NCBI GenBank assembly: GCA_025928545.1
Contig: JAICJH010000015.1
Coordinates: forward strand, 1 to 64,000
Length of the DNA stretch: 64,000 bases
Origin: Bryobacteraceae bacterium
GTDB lineage: Bacteria; Acidobacteriota; Terriglobia; Bryobacterales; Bryobacteraceae
Reading direction: 5' to 3'
Position 1 is the first letter of the stretch; each line of letters begins with the position of its first letter. A program made the translations under genes and the position numbers. The notes under the pieces were generated by a model. The model made no database searches. It saw only the letters and a program-made list of their open reading frames with translations, and had not been told where the DNA came from. Positions 15,326-28,248 of the stretch are shown in pieces.

Positions 15326-17536
15326 ATGATTCGCATGACAAAGAAACAGCGGCGGCGGGCGGTCTGGTTGCCCGTATCGGTTTTTTTCGCCGCCGCCGGC
15401 GGGATCGGAGTTTGGCAGCTGACGGCACAGGCGCCTCCCGCGTCGACGCCGGCTCCCGGTGCGGCAGCCACGCCCAGCCTTGCGCTTTCGGGAGCCGTCG
15501 GGCCTTTCATCGTGAAAAATTGCCAGACGTGCCACAACACTGCATTCGCGTCCGGCAGTCTCGACATGCAGCAGCTGCTTGCAATGCCCGATTCGCTCGC
15601 CGCGCATCGCGATTCGTGGGAAGACATTGCGTATAAGATCAAGTCCGGCGAGATGCCGCCGAAAGGCACGACACAGCCTTCGAAAGATGAGCTGGATGCG
15701 GCGCTCGAAACCATTAGCAGGGCCCTCGCTGCAAGCCCTGCCGCGACGCCCGCGCCGAACGTAATGCAGCCTGTGGCGCCTGCGACACCCGACTGGAGCA
15801 CGTTCGGGTACGATCCCCAACGCACGAACTGGGCTCGGGGCGAGACCCGGATCACGCTTAAAACCGCACCGCAATTAAAGCTGAAATGGAGAGTTCAAAC
15901 CGACACGACGCCGAATCCCGTCGACCGTTATTCGACGATGACCGCGCCGATCGTGATCCCCGGCGTGCAGACGAAGGACGGTGTGAAAACACTTGTGTTC
16001 TCGGGAAGCTACGACAATTCCGTTTATGCGATTGACGCCGACTCCGGTCAGATCGTATGGACGCGAAAGTATCCAAATACGGTGCCGCCGAAAATTCCGG
16101 CCACCGGAAACTGCCCGAACAACATGAATGCAACTCCCATGGTGGATAAAAAAACCGGGATTCTGTATTTTCTGCCCACGGACGGCAAGCTGCGCGGGGT
16201 CAGTCTGGCGGACGGCGAGGATCGTTTTCCGGCCACGAGCATCGTTCCGCCTTACACACGGAATTTCAGTCTCAACATGTTCGAAGGCACGATTTTTACT
16301 TCTACCACGCGCGGCTGTCAAAACGAGATTTCGGAGATTGTCGGCATCGATACGACGAATCCGGATCATCCGATTTCCCACTTTTATACGAGTACGGGAA
16401 AGGCCTCGGGGCCCTGGGGCCGCGGCGGCATCGTTGTAACCCCGTTCGGTGTGCTGGCGCAGACCGCCGATGGCGCGTACGATCCGGCGGCGGGCCGATG
16501 GGGCAGCAGCGTCGTCGGTCTCAATAAATTCGGACGCGTGACCGATTCCTTCACACCGATCAACCAGTTCGATCTCGACGCGAGAGACTTCGATCTCGGG
16601 TCCAGCAGTCCGGTGGTATTTCCATTTGCCGATCGGACGCTGGTGGCGGTGAGTGCGAAGGAAGGAGTCATTTATCTTCTCGATGCGAAGAATCTTGGCG
16701 GGAAGGATCACCGCACTCCTCTGTATGCTTCGCCACGCTGGTCGAACGACAGCATGCAATTCTCTATGAACGGCATGTGGAGCGTGATGTCGACATGGCA
16801 GGACGCACAGGGCAAACGATGGCTGCTTGCGCCGTTCTACGGCCCCGAGGCCAAAGCGACCGCAGGGCTCTTCAAAAAGGACCATGGACCCACCGTAAAC
16901 GGACAGCTGATGGCATTTACGGTTGAGGGCACCGGCGCACATCCAACGCTTGTACCACGATGGAAATCCGCCGATCTCGATCTTCCTGGAGTTGCGGTTG
17001 TCGCGAACGACGGCGTCATACTGATTCTGGCTAACGGGGACCGTGCTTCGACACTGCTTCCGGGCGGCCGGGGCCGAGGTGGCGCCACACAGGGCGGTGA
17101 GGACGATGCTTCACTGGCCGCCGGTGGCGCTCGCGGCGGCACGGGTGCGGCGGGAGCTTCCGGTGGGGGCGGACGTGGTGGAGGCGGGCGGGGCGGCCCT
17201 GGCGGAGCGCCACTGGCTCCTGGCGCTTCCCGCGTTTACAACCAGTACGAAGTAAACCCGGCGCAGCCGGGCTTCGAGAGAGATGCGGCTTGGCGCGCAT
17301 CCCAGTTAAGACCCTTTGAAGAAGGCGGTCAAAAGGGGGGGCAGAGGTACTCAGGTGGCAGGGACACTACACACGCAGTCCTTTATGCGCTCGATCCCGC
17401 AACCGGCGATGAGATTTATTCCAGCGGCGACGCCATCGACAGTTGGAATCACTATGGTGAGATTTCCGTCGCCGATGGCAGCGTCTATCTCAGCACCTGG
17501 GATGCACGGGTTTACGCTTTTGGGCTGAAGAAGTAG
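15326..17536 (+). CDS. PQQ-type beta-propeller with N-terminal c-type heme domain (quinohemoprotein-like)
   Basis: IVKNCQTCHNTAFASGSLDMQQLL (CxxCH) followed by WSTFGYDPQRTNWARGE...propeller...GSVYLSTWDARVYAFGLKK. Confidence 0.85.
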   Translation: MIRMTKKQRRRAVWLPVSVFFAAAGGIGVWQLTAQAPPASTPAPGAAATPSLALSGAVGPFIVKNCQTCHNTAFASGSLDMQQLLAMPDSLAAHRDSWEDIAYKIKSGEMPPKGTTQPSKDELDAALETISRALAASPAATPAPNVMQPVAPATPDWSTFGYDPQRTNWARGETRITLKTAPQLKLKWRVQTDTTPNPVDRYSTMTAPIVIPGVQTKDGVKTLVFSGSYDNSVYAIDADSGQIVWTRKYPNTVPPKIPATGNCPNNMNATPMVDKKTGILYFLPTDGKLRGVSLADGEDRFPATSIVPPYTRNFSLNMFEGTIFTSTTRGCQNEISEIVGIDTTNPDHPISHFYTSTGKASGPWGRGGIVVTPFGVLAQTADGAYDPAAGRWGSSVVGLNKFGRVTDSFTPINQFDLDARDFDLGSSSPVVFPFADRTLVAVSAKEGVIYLLDAKNLGGKDHRTPLYASPRWSNDSMQFSMNGMWSVMSTWQDAQGKRWLLAPFYGPEAKATAGLFKKDHGPTVNGQLMAFTVEGTGAHPTLVPRWKSADLDLPGVAVVANDGVILILANGDRASTLLPGGRGRGGATQGGEDDASLAAGGARGGTGAAGASGGGGRGGGGRGGPGGAPLAPGASRVYNQYEVNPAQPGFERDAAWRASQLRPFEEGGQKGGQRYSGGRDTTHAVLYALDPATGDEIYSSGDAIDSWNHYGEISVADGSVYLSTWDARVYAFGLKK

Positions 17537-17919: not shown

Positions 17920-18452
17920 TTCAAATCGGACTCTCGCCCGCCACAATCGACGCACCCATTGAACACTTGCTGGCTTGCCATCGCAGAATTGAGCAGCGTC
18001 TCGACACCTTGATCCGCGTGGGCGATCATCTCCGCACTAACCGAGCCGCCGCCCTGAAGGCTATTCGGAATAGTCTGGATTTTCTGGATACAAGCGGTGA
18101 GCTGCATACCGAAGATGAAGAAGAGAGCTTGTTTCCGCGGCTCCGGGAAAAGCTTTCAGCGGCCGAACTGACGTTCGTCGAGTCGCTGGAAACAGACCAC
18201 ACGAAAGCCGCAATAATTTATGCGGAACTTAAAAGCATCGCACTGACGCTGGGGGCGGCGGCTGAACCATCGGCCGAATGTATCGAAAAATATCTCGATC
18301 TTGCTAACAGATTGCGGACCCTCTACGGCAACCACATTCATGCCGAAGACGAGGTCTTCATGGCGTTCGCGGCGCGATACCTCAACGCGCTCGATATTGC
18401 CGAAATCTCGGCTGAAATGCGAACCCGCAGAATAAAAACCCGCGCAGCTTAG
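17916..18452 (+). CDS. Hemerythrin HHE domain protein
   Basis: HLLACHRRIEQRLDTL...HTEDEEESLFPRLRE...LETDHTKA...YGNHIHAEDEVFMAFA; 4-bp overlap with the upstream gene. Confidence 0.85.
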   Translation: MIQIGLSPATIDAPIEHLLACHRRIEQRLDTLIRVGDHLRTNRAAALKAIRNSLDFLDTSGELHTEDEEESLFPRLREKLSAAELTFVESLETDHTKAAIIYAELKSIALTLGAAAEPSAECIEKYLDLANRLRTLYGNHIHAEDEVFMAFAARYLNALDIAEISAEMRTRRIKTRAA

Positions 18453-18709
18453 GAATCGGGGCGCGAATCGCGGTCCACCCGGCGAACGAAGCCATACATG
18501 GCAAGACACGCGGCGCACAAAACGCCGGAGACGATCGCGGCGGGCAGCGCGGTTTCTGGGTGGCCTGCGAGAAAGGTATCGAGCGTCGCGGAGAGCAGCC
18601 AGATTTGAGTGACCAGCAGAATGACGATCAGCGCCGTGATCGCGTCAATCGCGGTCAGTCCGCGTCGCTGGCCCGGAATGTTGCGAGTGCTGGGACGATG
18701 CGCCATCAT
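18449..18709 (-). CDS. Small 2-TM membrane protein (DUF6755-like)
   Basis: GLTAIDAITALIVILLVTQIWLLSATLDTFLAGHPETALPAAIVSGVLCAACLAMYGFVRRVDR; overlaps Rieske stop. Confidence 0.6.
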   Translation of the reverse strand: MMAHRPSTRNIPGQRRGLTAIDAITALIVILLVTQIWLLSATLDTFLAGHPETALPAAIVSGVLCAACLAMYGFVRRVDRDSRPDS

Positions 18710-19215
18710 CAGGCTCCGGAGTCCATTTCGATTGCGATGAGTTGATCCCCGCTTCGTTCCAGAACAACACGAGGAAGCGGACGGGTGGGCGGACCCTGCA
18801 ACACAGAGCCGTCCTTCACGGAAAAATAGCCCTGATGGCAGGGGCACTCCAACCGATTCTGCTCGCGCGCGTAGAAAACCGCACAGGAGAGATGGGTGCA
18901 CTTCTGGCTATAGGCAACATAGGAGTCTTCCGCGGTCCGAATCATGATGCACTGCTCACCGGGGTTCGGGTATTGGAATAATTTCACGCCTCCGACGGGG
19001 ATCTCGCCGGCCTGTGCGACCGCGCTGCGGTTGTAAACGGGCGCCTTGCGAAGCCAACTCTTCCCCAGTATCCAGAGATTGCCGGCGAACATTCCGATGC
19101 TTCCCAAAGTGAGAAACTTCGCGAGTTGCCGTCTGCTCACGTAGCGTTCATCGGCTTTTGAAACCGAGAACTCGTCGCGCCAGAGTGGTTCCCGTTCCTT
19201 TGTCCGATCAGCCAT
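18709..19215 (-). CDS. Rieske [2Fe-2S] protein, membrane anchored
   Basis: CTHLSCAVFYAREQNRLECPCHQGYFSVKDGSVLQGPPTRPLP (C-x-H...C-x2-H). Confidence 0.9.
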   Translation of the reverse strand: MADRTKEREPLWRDEFSVSKADERYVSRRQLAKFLTLGSIGMFAGNLWILGKSWLRKAPVYNRSAVAQAGEIPVGGVKLFQYPNPGEQCIMIRTAEDSYVAYSQKCTHLSCAVFYAREQNRLECPCHQGYFSVKDGSVLQGPPTRPLPRVVLERSGDQLIAIEMDSGA

Positions 19216-19786
19216 TGCCGTTCTCCCACATGAATTCGGTGATGTCGAGCTGCAGCGAATCGGTGCCTGGCGGCGTCATCATGTAGACCTGTGTGGTGAT
19301 GGTCTGATTTCCGAACTGAAAAACATTGGACGGCTTCTCGCGACGTTGGGCGATTTCTTCGGGCCTGAGATAAGCGAGCGCCTGACTGGGGCAAACCGTC
19401 GCGCACATGGGGCGCTTACCGACTGAAGTCCGGTCGTAGCACATGTCGCATTTCATCATTTGTTCGTATTGCGGGATAATCTTCGGAATCCCGAAAGGAC
19501 AAGCCAGAACGCAGTTCTCGCAGGCGATGCAACGCGGCTTCAGCGCCGACATCACGATGCCGTCCTCCTCCACCTTGATTGCATCGGCGGGGCAGACCTG
19601 CGCACATGTGGGCTCATCGCAATGCCAGCAAACATAAGCGGAAGTGGCAATGGTCTCGGCGCGATCCACGAAATCGAAATTGATCATCGATTGTCCGCGG
19701 TGGGTCTCGCATTCTTCGCACGCTTTCACACAGGACTGACATCCAATGCATCGCGAGGGGTCCACGTAAAATTCGTAGCCGTACAT
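19208..19786 (-). CDS. 4Fe-4S electron-transfer protein (NrfC/DmsB-like, multi-cluster)
   Basis: DPSRCIGCQSCVKACEEC...CWHCDEPTCAQVCPADAI...CIACENCVLACPFGIP...MKCDMCYDR. Confidence 0.9.
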   Translation of the reverse strand: MYGYEFYVDPSRCIGCQSCVKACEECETHRGQSMINFDFVDRAETIATSAYVCWHCDEPTCAQVCPADAIKVEEDGIVMSALKPRCIACENCVLACPFGIPKIIPQYEQMMKCDMCYDRTSVGKRPMCATVCPSQALAYLRPEEIAQRREKPSNVFQFGNQTITTQVYMMTPPGTDSLQLDITEFMWENGNG

Positions 19787-22036
19787 TTAATTGGTATCTC
19801 CCTGCTTCCGTTCGGGTGATCCGATTGTCACGAGTTGCCGGTCGGCAGCCCATGATGGCGCGCCATCTGCCTTGCGAATCGAGCATGCCGAGACTTTGAA
19901 CTCCGGTATTTTGCTGCGGGGATCAATCGTCCGATGCGTCAGCAAATTCGCGCTTTTCTTGTCCGCCCAGTGATAGGGAATAAAGACCGTATCGGGGCGG
20001 ATGGTTCGCACCACCATGGCCTGAAGCGTGACCTCCGAACGGCGGGTGGTGACAGTCACCCAGTCTTTGTCCGCGATATTTTTGTGCTCCGCCAGGCGCG
20101 GATGTATTTCGACCCGCGGCTCCGGATAAATATCGACGAGTCCGCCAATCCGGCGGGTCTGCGCTCCGGAGAGATACTGACTGACGACGCGGCCCGTCGT
20201 GAGATACGTCGGGAAAGTTTCATCGACCGGATCGCCACTCTCGCGCCATTCGGTCGCCTGAAACCGGCATTTGCCGTCCGGATAAAACGAGACACCACCC
20301 GGCATCAGATTCGGCGTGCCAGGGTGTTCGAGCGTAGGACAGGGCCAGAATACACCCATCTGGGCGTCGATCTTCTCATAAGTAATGCCGTAGTAATCCG
20401 CATGTCCACCGCGGGAAGCTTCTCGCAGTTCGTCGAAGATTTCGCGAGGCGTATGGAACGGAAAGTATTGGCCCCTGCCAAGCCGGCGGGCCAGATCGCA
20501 GACGATTTCCGAATCGCGTCGTGCGTTCGCCGGCGGGTCGACCGCGCGTTGAATATGGATGACGCGACCCTCGGCGCTGCAGGTCACGCCCTCTTCTTCC
20601 TCCTGAAGACTTCCTGCCAGCACAACATCGGCGTAGCGTGCCGTCTCAGACAGAAAGAAATCCGTGACCGCAAAGAATTCCAGTTTCTCCAGCGCCTCCC
20701 GCGTGAAATCCGCATTGGGAAGAGAGACGGCGGGATTAAAGCAGATGGAGAACAGCGCTTTGATCTCGCCCGCATGGATGGCGTTCATGATCTCCTGCGC
20801 CGAATAGCCCGGTTGCGGCAGTTCGTCCGGCTGGATTCCCCAGACACGCGCGACATGTTCGCGTGCCTTCGGGTCAAGGAGGGAGCGCTGGCCAGGCAAC
20901 TGATCGCATTTTTGACCATGCTCGCGTCCACCCTGGCCATTGCCCTGCCCGGTGATCATGGTGCAGCCGCACCCTTCACGCCCGAAGTGGCCTGTCGCCA
21001 GGGTGAGGTTGATCAGCGCCGAACAATTTTCCACACCCTTCGATTGATGTTCCAGCCCGCGCGCATGCATCGCAATGGCCCGGTCGGCCTTTGCGAACAT
21101 GTGCGCGGCTTTCTCAATTGCCTCGGCGGGAACGCCGGTCATCTCGGCCGTTGTGCGCGGATCGAAGCAGGCGACCGATGCTTTGACCGCCTCGAATCCG
21201 GTGGTGTGCTGTTCAATGAAAGAATCGTCCTGCAGATTGTCGCGTAAGACAACATGCATCATGCCGCTGAGGAGAGCAAGATCCGTTCCTGGGCGCAGGG
21301 GGAGAAACAGATCGGCGTTGCGCGAGATGGGAGTGATGCGGGGGTCGGCGACGATCAGTTTGCCGCCATTGTCACGGCACCGCCAGATGTAGTCCGTGGT
21401 AATGGGTGCGCACTCGCCGACGTTTGCGCCGATCGCAAAGATCACATTTGCCTTCGGTATTTCCGACCACGGAATCGGGCTTCGGTCGACGTCGAACGCC
21501 AGTTTGTAGGCAACCCCCGCCGAGACCATGCAGAGGCGCCCGTTGTAATCGACGTGTCTGGTACCGAGCCCGACACGCGCGAACTTACCCATCAGGTACG
21601 CTTTCTCCGTAGTCAGCGATGCGCCGCCGAACACTGCCACGGCGTCCTTTCCGTAGCGTTCCTGGACTTCCCGAAGCCGCCGCGCTGTGAAAGACATCGC
21701 CTCATCCCAACTTGCCTTCACGAAACCGGAATCCGTGCGGAGCAAAGGATCGAGCAGGCGATCCGGATGATTCGATTGCAGGTAGCGTTTGACGCCTTTG
21801 GGACACAGCATGCCGCGGTTAAACGGAAAGTCTTCCCAGGGTTCGAAGCCAATGACGTGATTGTCGCGCACTTTCAGCTGAATGCCGCACTGCTGCCCGC
21901 AGAAGCAGCAATGCGTCTTCACCAGCCGATCGGGCCGGGTTCTCGCCTCTTTACTCCAGCCTCCCTCGGGCGTGTAGTTGAGATGTGGTCCGAAGCGATC
22001 GCGGAGCTGTTCCAAAGTTCCGGGCGGTTTAGCCAT
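19787..22036 (-). CDS. Molybdopterin oxidoreductase, Nas/Nap-type nitrate reductase catalytic subunit
   Basis: CCFCGQQCG...MLCPKGV 4Fe-4S motif; YNGRLCMVSAG (Mo-Cys position); GQGNGQGGREHGQKCDQLPG; no Tat signal. Confidence 0.85.
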   Translation of the reverse strand: MAKPPGTLEQLRDRFGPHLNYTPEGGWSKEARTRPDRLVKTHCCFCGQQCGIQLKVRDNHVIGFEPWEDFPFNRGMLCPKGVKRYLQSNHPDRLLDPLLRTDSGFVKASWDEAMSFTARRLREVQERYGKDAVAVFGGASLTTEKAYLMGKFARVGLGTRHVDYNGRLCMVSAGVAYKLAFDVDRSPIPWSEIPKANVIFAIGANVGECAPITTDYIWRCRDNGGKLIVADPRITPISRNADLFLPLRPGTDLALLSGMMHVVLRDNLQDDSFIEQHTTGFEAVKASVACFDPRTTAEMTGVPAEAIEKAAHMFAKADRAIAMHARGLEHQSKGVENCSALINLTLATGHFGREGCGCTMITGQGNGQGGREHGQKCDQLPGQRSLLDPKAREHVARVWGIQPDELPQPGYSAQEIMNAIHAGEIKALFSICFNPAVSLPNADFTREALEKLEFFAVTDFFLSETARYADVVLAGSLQEEEEGVTCSAEGRVIHIQRAVDPPANARRDSEIVCDLARRLGRGQYFPFHTPREIFDELREASRGGHADYYGITYEKIDAQMGVFWPCPTLEHPGTPNLMPGGVSFYPDGKCRFQATEWRESGDPVDETFPTYLTTGRVVSQYLSGAQTRRIGGLVDIYPEPRVEIHPRLAEHKNIADKDWVTVTTRRSEVTLQAMVVRTIRPDTVFIPYHWADKKSANLLTHRTIDPRSKIPEFKVSACSIRKADGAPSWAADRQLVTIGSPERKQGDTN

Positions 22037-24335
22037 TGGCAGCCTCGTGTGCGGTGGATTTCAGTTTGAGTTGCGTGACCGAGAGTGTTTTTCGCTTGCA
22101 GGGCGGGCAGAGATCCTGCCAGGCGACCTGCGTTCCGTGCATCCGGTAATCGAAGCCCAGTTGAGGCAGGACGGTCTTGAGATCGCGCACGTGCATGGCC
22201 GACGCAAAACGTTGTTTGCAGCGCGGGCAAATCGCGCCCGCACCTTCCGCGCCCACTTTGCGGTACAGCTTTATACCCAACTGGGCTGGTCGCTGGAAGA
22301 TGTGGAAGAACTTTCCGAATGGCAGAAACAGCAGCCCCGCTATGACAGTGATGGCGTGGATGATTGCCAGAAAGCTGTAGGCCGTGCCGCGCAACCATTC
22401 CTGCGAGACTGTCAGCGCGATTCCAGTCACGGAAATTGCGAACAACAGGATGACGGGAAAGAAGTCCATTGCGAAATTCTGGAGCGTCTGGGCGCCTTTA
22501 TCGCGAAGACGCCGCCACAGTGAAAGGACGACTCCTGCGATTACGAGTACCGCGGCAACATCGAGCCCATGAAAAAGCAGCGAGGCAATGACAGTGTGGA
22601 GGGGAAATGTGCCTGCGGGCAATCCGAACAAATAAGTCACGTAGGTGGATTGATCGTTGGGCAGAGAGCGAAAGGCAATCCAGCCGAAGACGAGAGGAAA
22701 TGTTATCGCGGCTGCCAGAATGCAGCCCCAGAAGAGGCATTGGTGCATCCACCAGCGGAGACGCGATCGCCTGGCTATGAATGTCTGGGCAACGATGTTC
22801 TTCCCGGTCAGGCCCGCGAGAGTGATCGACGACGCAAGTATTCCCTGGCTGCGGAATAGTTCCCAACCACGCCGCCAGTACATTCGTGTTGGTGGCTTGT
22901 CGAGCCAGACGTTGTAGTGATAAACGACGCCCCACGTGGCGAAGATAATGGCAAACGTGTAAATCACCAGCGCGGGATCGAAGTTTTCCAAGTTGCGCGA
23001 TCCCACAACAATTGCCGCGATCAGAAGAAGGGTGAACAGCGTGGCCCACGCAGCGGCGCGGACCCGATCCGCCGTTCGGGTGAGATGGTCGGGAAGGGCG
23101 AGGTCCAGCGCATCCTGCCTGGGTATGAAGACGCGGGCGTTGATCCGCCACATCACCAGCGAAACCAGGGCCAGCAGGATAAAGCCGGGCCAGACGGCGC
23201 CCAGGCGGTCGCGAAATACTCCAAGCAACAAAGGGGGGAAGAAACCGCCCAGCCCGCCCATTGCGCCTACCAGCCCCGTAACGGTTCCAGTTTCGCCGGG
23301 AAAGTATTGGGGCACGAGCTTGAAAACAGCGCCATTGCCCAGACCCATCATGACCGCGCAGCCCAGCGCACCGATTGTGAAGGGCAGCATCGAAGGCCAG
23401 GCGAGTAAAAGCGCAAACGGAACGACGATGGAAAAGACAGCCGACAGCACCCGCGCTCCGCCGATGCGGTCGGAAAGCCAGCCTCCCACAGGACGGAGTA
23501 AAGTGGCCAACACAACAAAGCCGGCGGTTCGAAACCCGGCGTCGGCAGGTGTGAGATGGAATTGATCTCTCAGAAGGCTGGGCAGGTAGATCGAGAAGGC
23601 GACGAAGCCTCCGAACGTGAGGAAATAAAACGCCGAGAGAGCCCACGAAAGACGTTCGCGCGCCAGCAGACCAAACATTGCGCCGAGGGTTTTGGGATGG
23701 ACTGCGACCGGTGCGTTCCTCGCGAATTGCCAGAACACTGCCGCCCACAGGACCAGCAATACCGCTATGCCCCGGAAAATATTCTGCCATCCGAAGGAGA
23801 CAGCCAGAAGAGGCCCGAGAAAGACAGCGGCGGATTGGCCGATGTTGCCCAGGCCATAGACCCCGAGCGCGCTGCCGTGCTTTTCAGCACTAAACCATCG
23901 GGAGACAAAGCCTACACCAACGGCAAAAGACGACCCTGCCAGGCCCAGAAAAAAACCGCCGAGAAGGAGTTGCCGATAGGTTTGCGCCATTGGCGTCATG
24001 AAGGCCGGCAGGGCGCAAACCAACATGAGGAACGAAAACACCAGCCTTCCGCCGTAGCGGTCTGCGAGCATGCCGATCGGGAGCCGTGCCAACGCGCCCA
24101 GCAACACGGGCACTGCAACCAGCAGGGCTGCCTGTGTAGCGGAGAGGTGGAACATGTCGCGGAATCGCGGGGCGAAAGCAGCGATTAAGCCCCAGGCTGC
24201 GAAGCAGACAGCGAAGGATATCGTGCCCAATACAAGAGGCACCACTCCAGCGGATTTAACAGGGCTGTTTGGCTGCATGTTGACGACCGGCTGCATATAA
24301 CGACCGGTGTGGACTGTAGTGATTATACGCGCCAT
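22029..24335 (-). CDS. Fusion: NarK-type nitrate/nitrite MFS transporter + NarI/HdrE-like cytochrome b + C-terminal zinc ribbon
   Basis: FFLGLAGSSFAVGVGFVSRWFSAEKHGSALGVYGLGNIGQ (NarK), RWWMHQCLFWGCILAAAITFPLVFGW...FPLHTVIASLLFHGLD...FGKFFHIFQRP (cyt b-like), CPRCKQRFASAMHVRDLKTVLPQ...CPPCKRKTL; start could be internal (MQPNSP). Confidence 0.85.
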   Translation of the reverse strand: MARIITTVHTGRYMQPVVNMQPNSPVKSAGVVPLVLGTISFAVCFAAWGLIAAFAPRFRDMFHLSATQAALLVAVPVLLGALARLPIGMLADRYGGRLVFSFLMLVCALPAFMTPMAQTYRQLLLGGFFLGLAGSSFAVGVGFVSRWFSAEKHGSALGVYGLGNIGQSAAVFLGPLLAVSFGWQNIFRGIAVLLVLWAAVFWQFARNAPVAVHPKTLGAMFGLLARERLSWALSAFYFLTFGGFVAFSIYLPSLLRDQFHLTPADAGFRTAGFVVLATLLRPVGGWLSDRIGGARVLSAVFSIVVPFALLLAWPSMLPFTIGALGCAVMMGLGNGAVFKLVPQYFPGETGTVTGLVGAMGGLGGFFPPLLLGVFRDRLGAVWPGFILLALVSLVMWRINARVFIPRQDALDLALPDHLTRTADRVRAAAWATLFTLLLIAAIVVGSRNLENFDPALVIYTFAIIFATWGVVYHYNVWLDKPPTRMYWRRGWELFRSQGILASSITLAGLTGKNIVAQTFIARRSRLRWWMHQCLFWGCILAAAITFPLVFGWIAFRSLPNDQSTYVTYLFGLPAGTFPLHTVIASLLFHGLDVAAVLVIAGVVLSLWRRLRDKGAQTLQNFAMDFFPVILLFAISVTGIALTVSQEWLRGTAYSFLAIIHAITVIAGLLFLPFGKFFHIFQRPAQLGIKLYRKVGAEGAGAICPRCKQRFASAMHVRDLKTVLPQLGFDYRMHGTQVAWQDLCPPCKRKTLSVTQLKLKSTAHEAANG

Positions 24336-27549: not shown

Positions 27550-28248
27550 ATGCCCGAGAACCCTTCCCCCCGACAGATTTTGAAAGCCACGCCGCTTTTT
27601 GCCGCATTGGACGACACCGAAATCAATTCACTGGCTGCCCGTTGCGGAATCCGACCCTATTCGCCGGCAGAGATTCTGTTTTCCGAAGGAGAACCATGCA
27701 AGGGGCTGTATATCGTGGTCACGGGTCGTGTTCGCATCTACAAAATGTCTATAAATGGTCGCGAACAGGTGTTATCGGTGGAGGGCCCCGGCGCGTCTGT
27801 TGCAGAACTGCCGGTGTTCGACGGGGGCAGTTATCCCGCATCCGCTTCGGCTATTGAGAAAACGGATGCTCTCTTCGTATCCCGCGCCGATCTGCGCGCG
27901 ATTTGTCTGGAGAAACCGGAAGTTTCGCTGAAGATGTTGCAAGTCGTGGGGGCGCGGCTGCGCAGGTTAGTCGGGATTATCGAGGAGCTCTCTTTCACGA
28001 CCGTCCGGCACCGCCTCATCTCCTGGCTTTTGCGGCAGGCAACTACCGAAGGGCGTGCCGGGGAGCGAGGAATTGTTTTCTCTCTGAACACGAGCCATCA
28101 GGAGTTGGCGGCACAGATCGGCACCGTTCGCGAATTGGTATCGCGCAATCTGGCGCGCCTTCAGGCACAGAGCTTTATCGAGATGAATGGCCGCGAAATA
28201 ACGATCCTGGATCGGGCGGGACTGGAAGCCGACCTCGCATCCATTTAG
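27550..28248 (+). CDS. Crp/Fnr-family transcriptional regulator
   Basis: cNMP-binding-like N-term GEPCKGLYIVVTGRVRIYK; HTH SHQELAAQIGTVRELVSRNLARLQ (ExxSR recognition motif). Confidence 0.9.
   Translation: MPENPSPRQILKATPLFAALDDTEINSLAARCGIRPYSPAEILFSEGEPCKGLYIVVTGRVRIYKMSINGREQVLSVEGPGASVAELPVFDGGSYPASASAIEKTDALFVSRADLRAICLEKPEVSLKMLQVVGARLRRLVGIIEELSFTTVRHRLISWLLRQATTEGRAGERGIVFSLNTSHQELAAQIGTVRELVSRNLARLQAQSFIEMNGREITILDRAGLEADLASI

Follow-up and report, generated by a model that had tools for sequence, protein, structure and literature searches.

Nitrate transporters of the NarK/NarU type (TIGR00886; PDB 4u4t, 4jr9 and 4iu8) and NarI, the membrane cytochrome b that forms the gamma subunit of NarGHI (PF02665), are the closest described counterparts of a membrane protein encoded in a Bryobacteraceae genome, within the 64,000-nucleotide stretch of DNA that was analysed as a whole and is here called the window. 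The N-terminal half of this protein shares with NarK and NarU the MFS fold, the aligned arginines and the nitrate motifs; unlike them, it forms a subfamily of its own, scores below the TIGR00886 cut-off, and is fused to a cytochrome b. Its C-terminal half resembles NarI as a membrane cytochrome b anchor that stands beside a 4Fe-4S protein and a molybdoenzyme, and it has the same 18-residue spacing of histidines. In contrast to NarI, however, it is fused to NarK, carries a Cys4 ribbon, and has one additional helix and a beta insert on the periplasmic side; one of the NarI ligand positions is missing, and its catalytic partner is of the NasC/FdhF type rather than NarG. The operon also departs from NarGHI, as neither the catalytic subunit NarG nor NarJ is seen in it, both in the window and at the related loci.

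The best curated profile matches of the cytochrome b half are to QmoC, DsrM, TmcC, HmcE and TcuB, from which it differs in having no Fe-S domain of its own and in lying within a nitrate-linked operon. The ribbon weakly resembles the C-terminal extension of HycF and HyfH, with CxxC-x36-CPxC in the window against CxxC-x34-CPxC in HycF, where the motif holds a single metal ion, tentatively assigned as iron, close to the FdhF interface in formate hydrogenlyase (PMC9474812). HycF is thus found near FdhF, a relative of the molybdenum (Mo) subunit in the window, and near HycB, which has four Fe-S clusters like the Fe-S protein in the window. The assimilatory enzymes NasC and NarB share with that Mo subunit the CxxCxxxC and LCM motifs of a bis-MGD enzyme with a cytoplasmic location, which for the window protein is predicted; they differ from it in its partners, a membrane cytochrome b, a four-cluster Fe-S protein and a Rieske protein.

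The only NarK fusion that we met in the open-access literature is Paracoccus NarK1-NarK2, a natural fusion that is cited in PMC2700814 and that, unlike the protein described here, joins two transporters rather than a transporter and a redox subunit. No account of a NarK-cytochrome b fusion or of its operon was found in the open-access literature, to which the search was confined. The fusion protein is a new combination of known parts, and it is probably the membrane component of a predicted quinol:nitrate oxidoreductase, with a nitrate carrier fused to a quinol-oxidising cytochrome b.

The fusion gene

The fusion gene lies on the minus strand at 22029..24335, running from an ATG at 24335 to a TAA stop at 22031-22029, and it encodes 768 amino acids comprising NarK, cytochrome b and a Cys4 ribbon. 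Several stops interrupt the plus strand across the same interval. Length and coordinates agree exactly with those given by an earlier reading made from the letters of the DNA (the sequence-only reading), which was silent on the strand, and all of the motifs that it named in the protein (WWMHQ, PLHTVIASLLFHG, FFHIFQRP, CPRC and CPPC) are present. The full-length fusion occurs in seven other relatives at 63-86% identity, and because dozens of independent genomes carry it, an assembly error, a frame artefact or chance can be ruled out as its source.

Screening GTDB genomes with the C-terminal part gave no fewer than 241 relatives. The 80 best were retained for analysis, and the fusion family is more widespread than was first supposed. 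NarK directly precedes the cytochrome b in 50 of the 80 kept loci, made up of 49 fused loci and one independent case (L092); a few of these are truncated by the end of a contig, and probable frame errors interrupt at least four (L031, L036, L040 and L058). The cytochrome b with its ribbon is a gene of its own in 30 of the 80; such stand-alone genes occur in Blastocatellia, Granulicella, Planctomycetota, Armatimonadota, Chloroflexota, Myxococcota and Deinococcus. No relative was found among viral contigs. The protein had originally been described as a three-part fusion, and the NarK, cytochrome b and ribbon parts are indeed all there; however, since the ribbon sits within the stand-alone cytochrome b gene of other phyla and so belongs to that subunit, we reject a fusion of three parts in favor of two neighboring genes that have been joined.

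The predicted topology is 12 + 6 helices, and positive-inside charges place the ribbon in the cytoplasm. In an AlphaFold model of the whole protein (pLDDT 88.7, pTM 0.80), the last NarK helix (residues 382-412) is followed after no more than a very short break by the first helix of the cytochrome b (residues 416-445).

The NarK half

Residues 31-412 (23100..24245, minus strand) form a NarK-type MFS transporter domain, in agreement with what had been proposed, as judged by the Pfam MFS_1 profile (3e-49), a TIGR00886 match of 230.6 bits, which is below the curated cut-off of 311.7, and an alignment with E. coli NarK (4u4t). Within that alignment, R84 and R281 of the fusion fall opposite R89 and R305, the nitrate-binding arginines of E. 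coli NarK, and both residues are unchanged in 8 of 8 relatives aligned. The domain also contains both GxGN/GNG-type nitrate motifs, GLGNIGQS and GLGNGAVF, and is about 31% identical to the NarK encoded beside NarG in the same genome. When the full-length fusion model was used in a structure search, the matches listed were to MFS proteins only. Its family and conserved arginines suggest that the NarK half carries nitrate and/or nitrite.

The cytochrome b half and the Cys4 ribbon

Residues 416-697 (22245..23090, minus strand) make up a NarI/QmoC/TcuB-like cytochrome b domain with six predicted transmembrane helices, assigned from the QmoC and PF02665 profiles, histidine conservation, hydropathy and AlphaFold. 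The profile matches, to QmoC, TcuB, TmcC and DsrM, are weak but consistent: the QmoC and TcuB profiles match 47 of 48 family members (best 1.9e-9), all far under the curated cut-offs, and PF02665 (Nitrate_red_gam) matches 31 of 48 (best 4.8e-6). The window protein itself scores 25.7 bits with QmoC, for which the curated equivalog cut-off is 300, and 20.7 bits with PF02665, for which the gathering score is 22.9. The AlphaFold model of the C-terminal part has a pLDDT of 91.5 and a pTM of 0.83. A Foldseek search with the cytochrome b model returned nothing significant from the PDB (best E 0.06, TM 0.2), so the NarI-like fold rests on the sequence profiles, and an hhalign comparison with the NarI of the same genome is likewise weak (E 0.08). 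The membrane segment had been called NarI-like, which the profiles and the conserved histidines bear out, while the heme is predicted.

Conservation was followed in an alignment of 78 homologs, of which 30 are unfused and 48 belong to the main fused clade. All 78, which come from several phyla, have a histidine at H531, H660 and H678. Two of these, H531 (WWMHQ) and H678 (FFHIF), had been put forward as candidate heme ligands by the sequence-only reading, whose list did not include H660. Its other candidates fared less well: H589 (LLFHG) is near-universal in the fusions only, being His in 47/48 fused and 20/30 unfused homologs, with Asn or Asp in the other 10 and one whole unfused clade without it, and H580 (PLHT) is not conserved. 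Between H660 and H678 the spacing is 18 residues, which the genome's own NarI shares, although the underlying alignment is weak. The four-histidine pattern of NarI is incomplete: H531, H660 and H678 are in NarI-like places, but the position of H66 (NarI numbering) is not His; H589, located on another helix, is a candidate substitute for this ligand. By analogy with NarI, we infer that H531 and H678 would ligate a heme b on the cytoplasmic side, and H660, together with H589 where present, a second heme. This second heme is unsure because 10 of the 30 unfused relatives have Asn or Asp in place of H589. A further residue, H473 (window 22917-22919), is His in 48/48 members of the main fused clade and Arg in 30/30 unfused homologs; we rejected it as a fusion-specific heme ligand, since the independently fused L092 also has Arg, which makes H473 a trait of the clade and not a mark of fusion.

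It is very improbable that the C-terminal half is free of heme and serves as an accessory membrane domain by which a NarK transporter is tethered to the Mo enzyme. The lack of a significant Foldseek match and the loss of H589 from a whole unfused clade would fit such a domain, but three histidines are invariant in 78 of 78 homologs across phyla, the families matched (QmoC, TcuB, DsrM, TmcC and NarI) are heme-b families, and the operon contains no other cytochrome b that could join the quinone pool to the Fe-S protein.

Residues 700-768 (22032..22238, minus strand) form a cytoplasmic, HycF/HyfH-like Cys4 ribbon, recognized from the invariance of its cysteines and a weak similarity to HycF/HyfH. 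Its cysteines, C703-C706-C743-C746, follow the pattern CxxC-x36-CPxC, and the ribbon claimed from the sequence holds up well, as all four are invariant in the 78 aligned relatives apart from one in which the C-terminal end is missing or unread. The similarity to HycF and HyfH, of formate hydrogenlyase and hydrogenase 4, is weak (E ~1 with PDB profiles, down to 2.4e-4 with NCBIfam); the ribbon does display the HycF-type pattern, CxxC-x(about 35)-CPxC in a cytoplasmic C-terminal extension. Because this HycF-like site follows the cytochrome b on its cytoplasmic side and has FdhF-like and HycB-like partners next to it, the most economical reading is that the ribbon helps to dock the Mo/Fe-S module.

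Operon partners

The order of fusion, Mo, Fe-S, Rieske and DUF6755 genes on one strand is conserved across the related loci. In the window, the fusion gene is followed by a gene for a molybdopterin oxidoreductase of the NasC/FdhF type (19787..22036, minus strand; 749 aa), assigned by profiles, PDB comparison and translation, which has an NGRLCM Mo-ligand motif and no Tat motif. Its ATG precedes the end of the fusion gene, and the two genes share 8 bp (ATGGCTAA). At one locus (L052, 2-4507) the fusion and Mo genes form one 1501-aa frame. We did not count this as a triple fusion, as it is a single case that one indel in the out-of-frame overlap would produce; such an indel is the probable explanation, a further fusion being the other.

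All 72 Mo homologs that were checked have NGRLCM at the Mo-ligand site and none has a Tat motif, so the subunit should be cytoplasmic. Its best profile is NasC, at 768.7 bits (the NF047855 cut-off of 1100 is not reached), and its identity with the NasC that is linked to NirBD in this genome is about 36%. Its closest relatives in the PDB are formate dehydrogenases and NapA, with formate dehydrogenases as the best matches.

The third gene (19208..19786, minus strand), identified from profiles and its translation, encodes a ferredoxin-type electron-transfer subunit of 192 aa in which 16 cysteines are positioned for four [4Fe-4S] clusters. The fourth (18709..19215, minus strand), assigned in the same way, encodes a Rieske [2Fe-2S] protein with CTHLSC...CPCH, and with a twin-arginine-like N-terminal SRRQLAKFL and a hydrophobic segment; it should face the periplasm and is apparently Tat-targeted. 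Conserved as it is within this NasC-like operon, a periplasmic Rieske protein would be unexpected in a plain chain of the NarI type, which counts against the function proposed below. The conserved last gene of the core operon (18449..18709, minus strand) encodes a small DUF6755 membrane protein (PF20540, 2.3e-10) that probably starts at an ATG near 18709, giving about 85 aa, and not at a GTG at 18901. A PQQ-dehydrogenase-like protein with an N-terminal CxxCH segment is also encoded near the operon (window 15326-17536).

Some features of these partners would suit a complex that acts on another substrate or in the reverse direction, with nitrite, chlorate, formate or another oxyanion as substrate and NarK carrying that anion. 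The Mo subunit is about equally close to formate dehydrogenases and NapA in the PDB, and a Rieske protein, here one that weakly matches the arsenite oxidase small subunit, would suit a complex donating electrons to a periplasmic acceptor. However, formate dehydrogenases have a Cys/Sec-His pair where the Mo subunit has NGRLCM, the NasC model outscores the FDH model (768.7 against 596.1 bits), and the NarK arginines are conserved, all of which makes a different substrate or direction quite unlikely.

Genome context and regulators

A Crp/FNR-type regulator encoded at 27550..28248 on the plus strand is the probable regulator of the system; its identity with the Crp genes beside six other fusion operons is 58-82%. 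Neighbors that recur at related loci are the iron-sulfur repair protein RIC (13 loci; TIGR03652 above cut-off, one member), Crp/FNR (9 loci) and Rrf2 regulators; NorB lies near the operon in L062, with a homolog in L064. Three loci (L035, L042 and L049) share a one-strand order of Crp, RIC, (membrane protein) and fusion. The RIC, Crp/FNR and NorB neighbors point to N-oxide respiration. A polytopic membrane protein of ~450 aa, with HGH and HALTVG motifs, is found near the fusion at 13 loci (including L042 3100-4446, L049 2850-4229 and L077 1620-2966), at some of them between RIC and the fusion; it looks NnrS-like by eye and has no match in Pfam or NCBIfam.

The same genome encodes NarGHJI with a NarK on contig C99 and a separate NasC-NirBD-NarK cluster on contig C140, and since it has both of these clusters, the fusion system forms a third nitrate-linked set, which is probably not the assimilatory one. 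On C99 (22331-25912, L114), narG is immediately preceded by a cytochrome c gene, and one TAA was counted in the narG match. The fusion was found in 9 of 61 genomes searched, one of them partial. Four of these 9 carriers have narG, compared with 5 of the other 52 (Fisher p 0.02, kinship ignored), and nirB is present in 5 and absent from 4.

These counts bear on whether the system is an assimilatory nitrate reductase, in which the cytochrome b would convey quinol-pool electrons to the NasC-like enzyme and the nitrite formed would go to NirB. NasC is the top profile of the catalytic subunit (768.7 bits) and NirB occurs in 5 of the 9 carriers. Such a role nevertheless appears unlikely: the NasC score is below the cut-off of 1100, the genome has the complete cluster on another contig, 4 of the 9 carriers are without NirB, the NirB of L113 sits with its own reductase, and the neighbors of the fusion are RIC, Crp/FNR and NorB instead of nirB. 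We therefore disfavor the fusion system as the assimilatory reductase of this genome.

Relatives and origin of the fusion

At the unfused loci, NarK is often a separate gene that lies immediately upstream or after DUF6755, and at others it falls outside the sequence available. The occurrence of two separate proteins in homologs had been named as grounds against the fusion, and such proteins do occur, yet the separate NarK usually shares the operon, which supports a functional association of the two. The tree of the cytochrome b requires two changes of state, both forced by starred branches, and the second fusion is on a single Armatimonadota contig (L092). The NarK tree gives the same three groups, each starred: the main fused clade, the Armatimonadota (with L092 among them) and all others. 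With the exception of Deinococcus, the NarKs of the system fall into a single group (SH-aLRT 87), whose three subclades match the cytochrome b tree. The fusion arose at least twice, the joining of neighboring genes explains it, and the agreement of the two trees indicates that transporter and cytochrome b evolved together.

In cultured Deinococcus strains, the operon is found in its unfused form on plasmids, and the NarK there is a different one. The stand-alone 370-aa cytochrome b at these loci (L116 8860-9972, L117 8860-9972 and L118 8857-9969) is labeled 'MFS transporter' in RefSeq, a name that fits the fused form only and was probably carried over from it. Pfam finds no MFS domain in the L116 protein, where PF02665 is the only match, just under its cut-off.

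Proposed function

In the predicted quinol:nitrate oxidoreductase that we favor, the NarK half would bring nitrate to the cytoplasm, perhaps exchanging it for nitrite, and the cytochrome b half, as its NarI/QmoC family and topology suggest, would oxidize menaquinol or ubiquinol towards the periplasm. Electrons would reach the cytoplasmic face by way of heme b (at H531/H678, with another at H660 and, where present, H589), and would go on from there through the four-cluster Fe-S protein to the cytoplasmic NasC/FdhF-type molybdoenzyme, which, judging from its motif, its context and the transporter, would reduce nitrate to nitrite. The C-terminal ribbon may hold this module in place, as HycF does with FdhF. 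Fusion would set transporter and enzyme at 1:1 and in proximity. Nitrate import may be physically coupled to quinol oxidation, and nitrate entry and reduction may take place in one machine. The conserved gene order, the 8-bp overlap of the Mo and fusion genes and the co-occurrence of NarK in the operon argue for this function. Against it, the best PDB matches of the Mo subunit are formate dehydrogenases, and the genome already has NarGHI, beside which the need for a further respiratory nitrate reductase is not obvious. A redox-linked transporter is a more speculative and highly unlikely design, in which electron flow would alter the activity or direction of NarK (or nitrate would be channeled to the docked Mo enzyme) and the Rieske protein would provide a bifurcating or bc1-like split, amounting to an energy-conserving design of its own.

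Whether the import and the reduction of nitrate function as a single unit is a question for which the fusion is a natural test case, and the finished Deinococcus genomes provide the unfused form for comparison. If our main reading is true, bacteria of several phyla, including many soil Acidobacteria, carry a nitrate reductase that narG/napA surveys would overlook or that would be filed as assimilatory nasC/narB.
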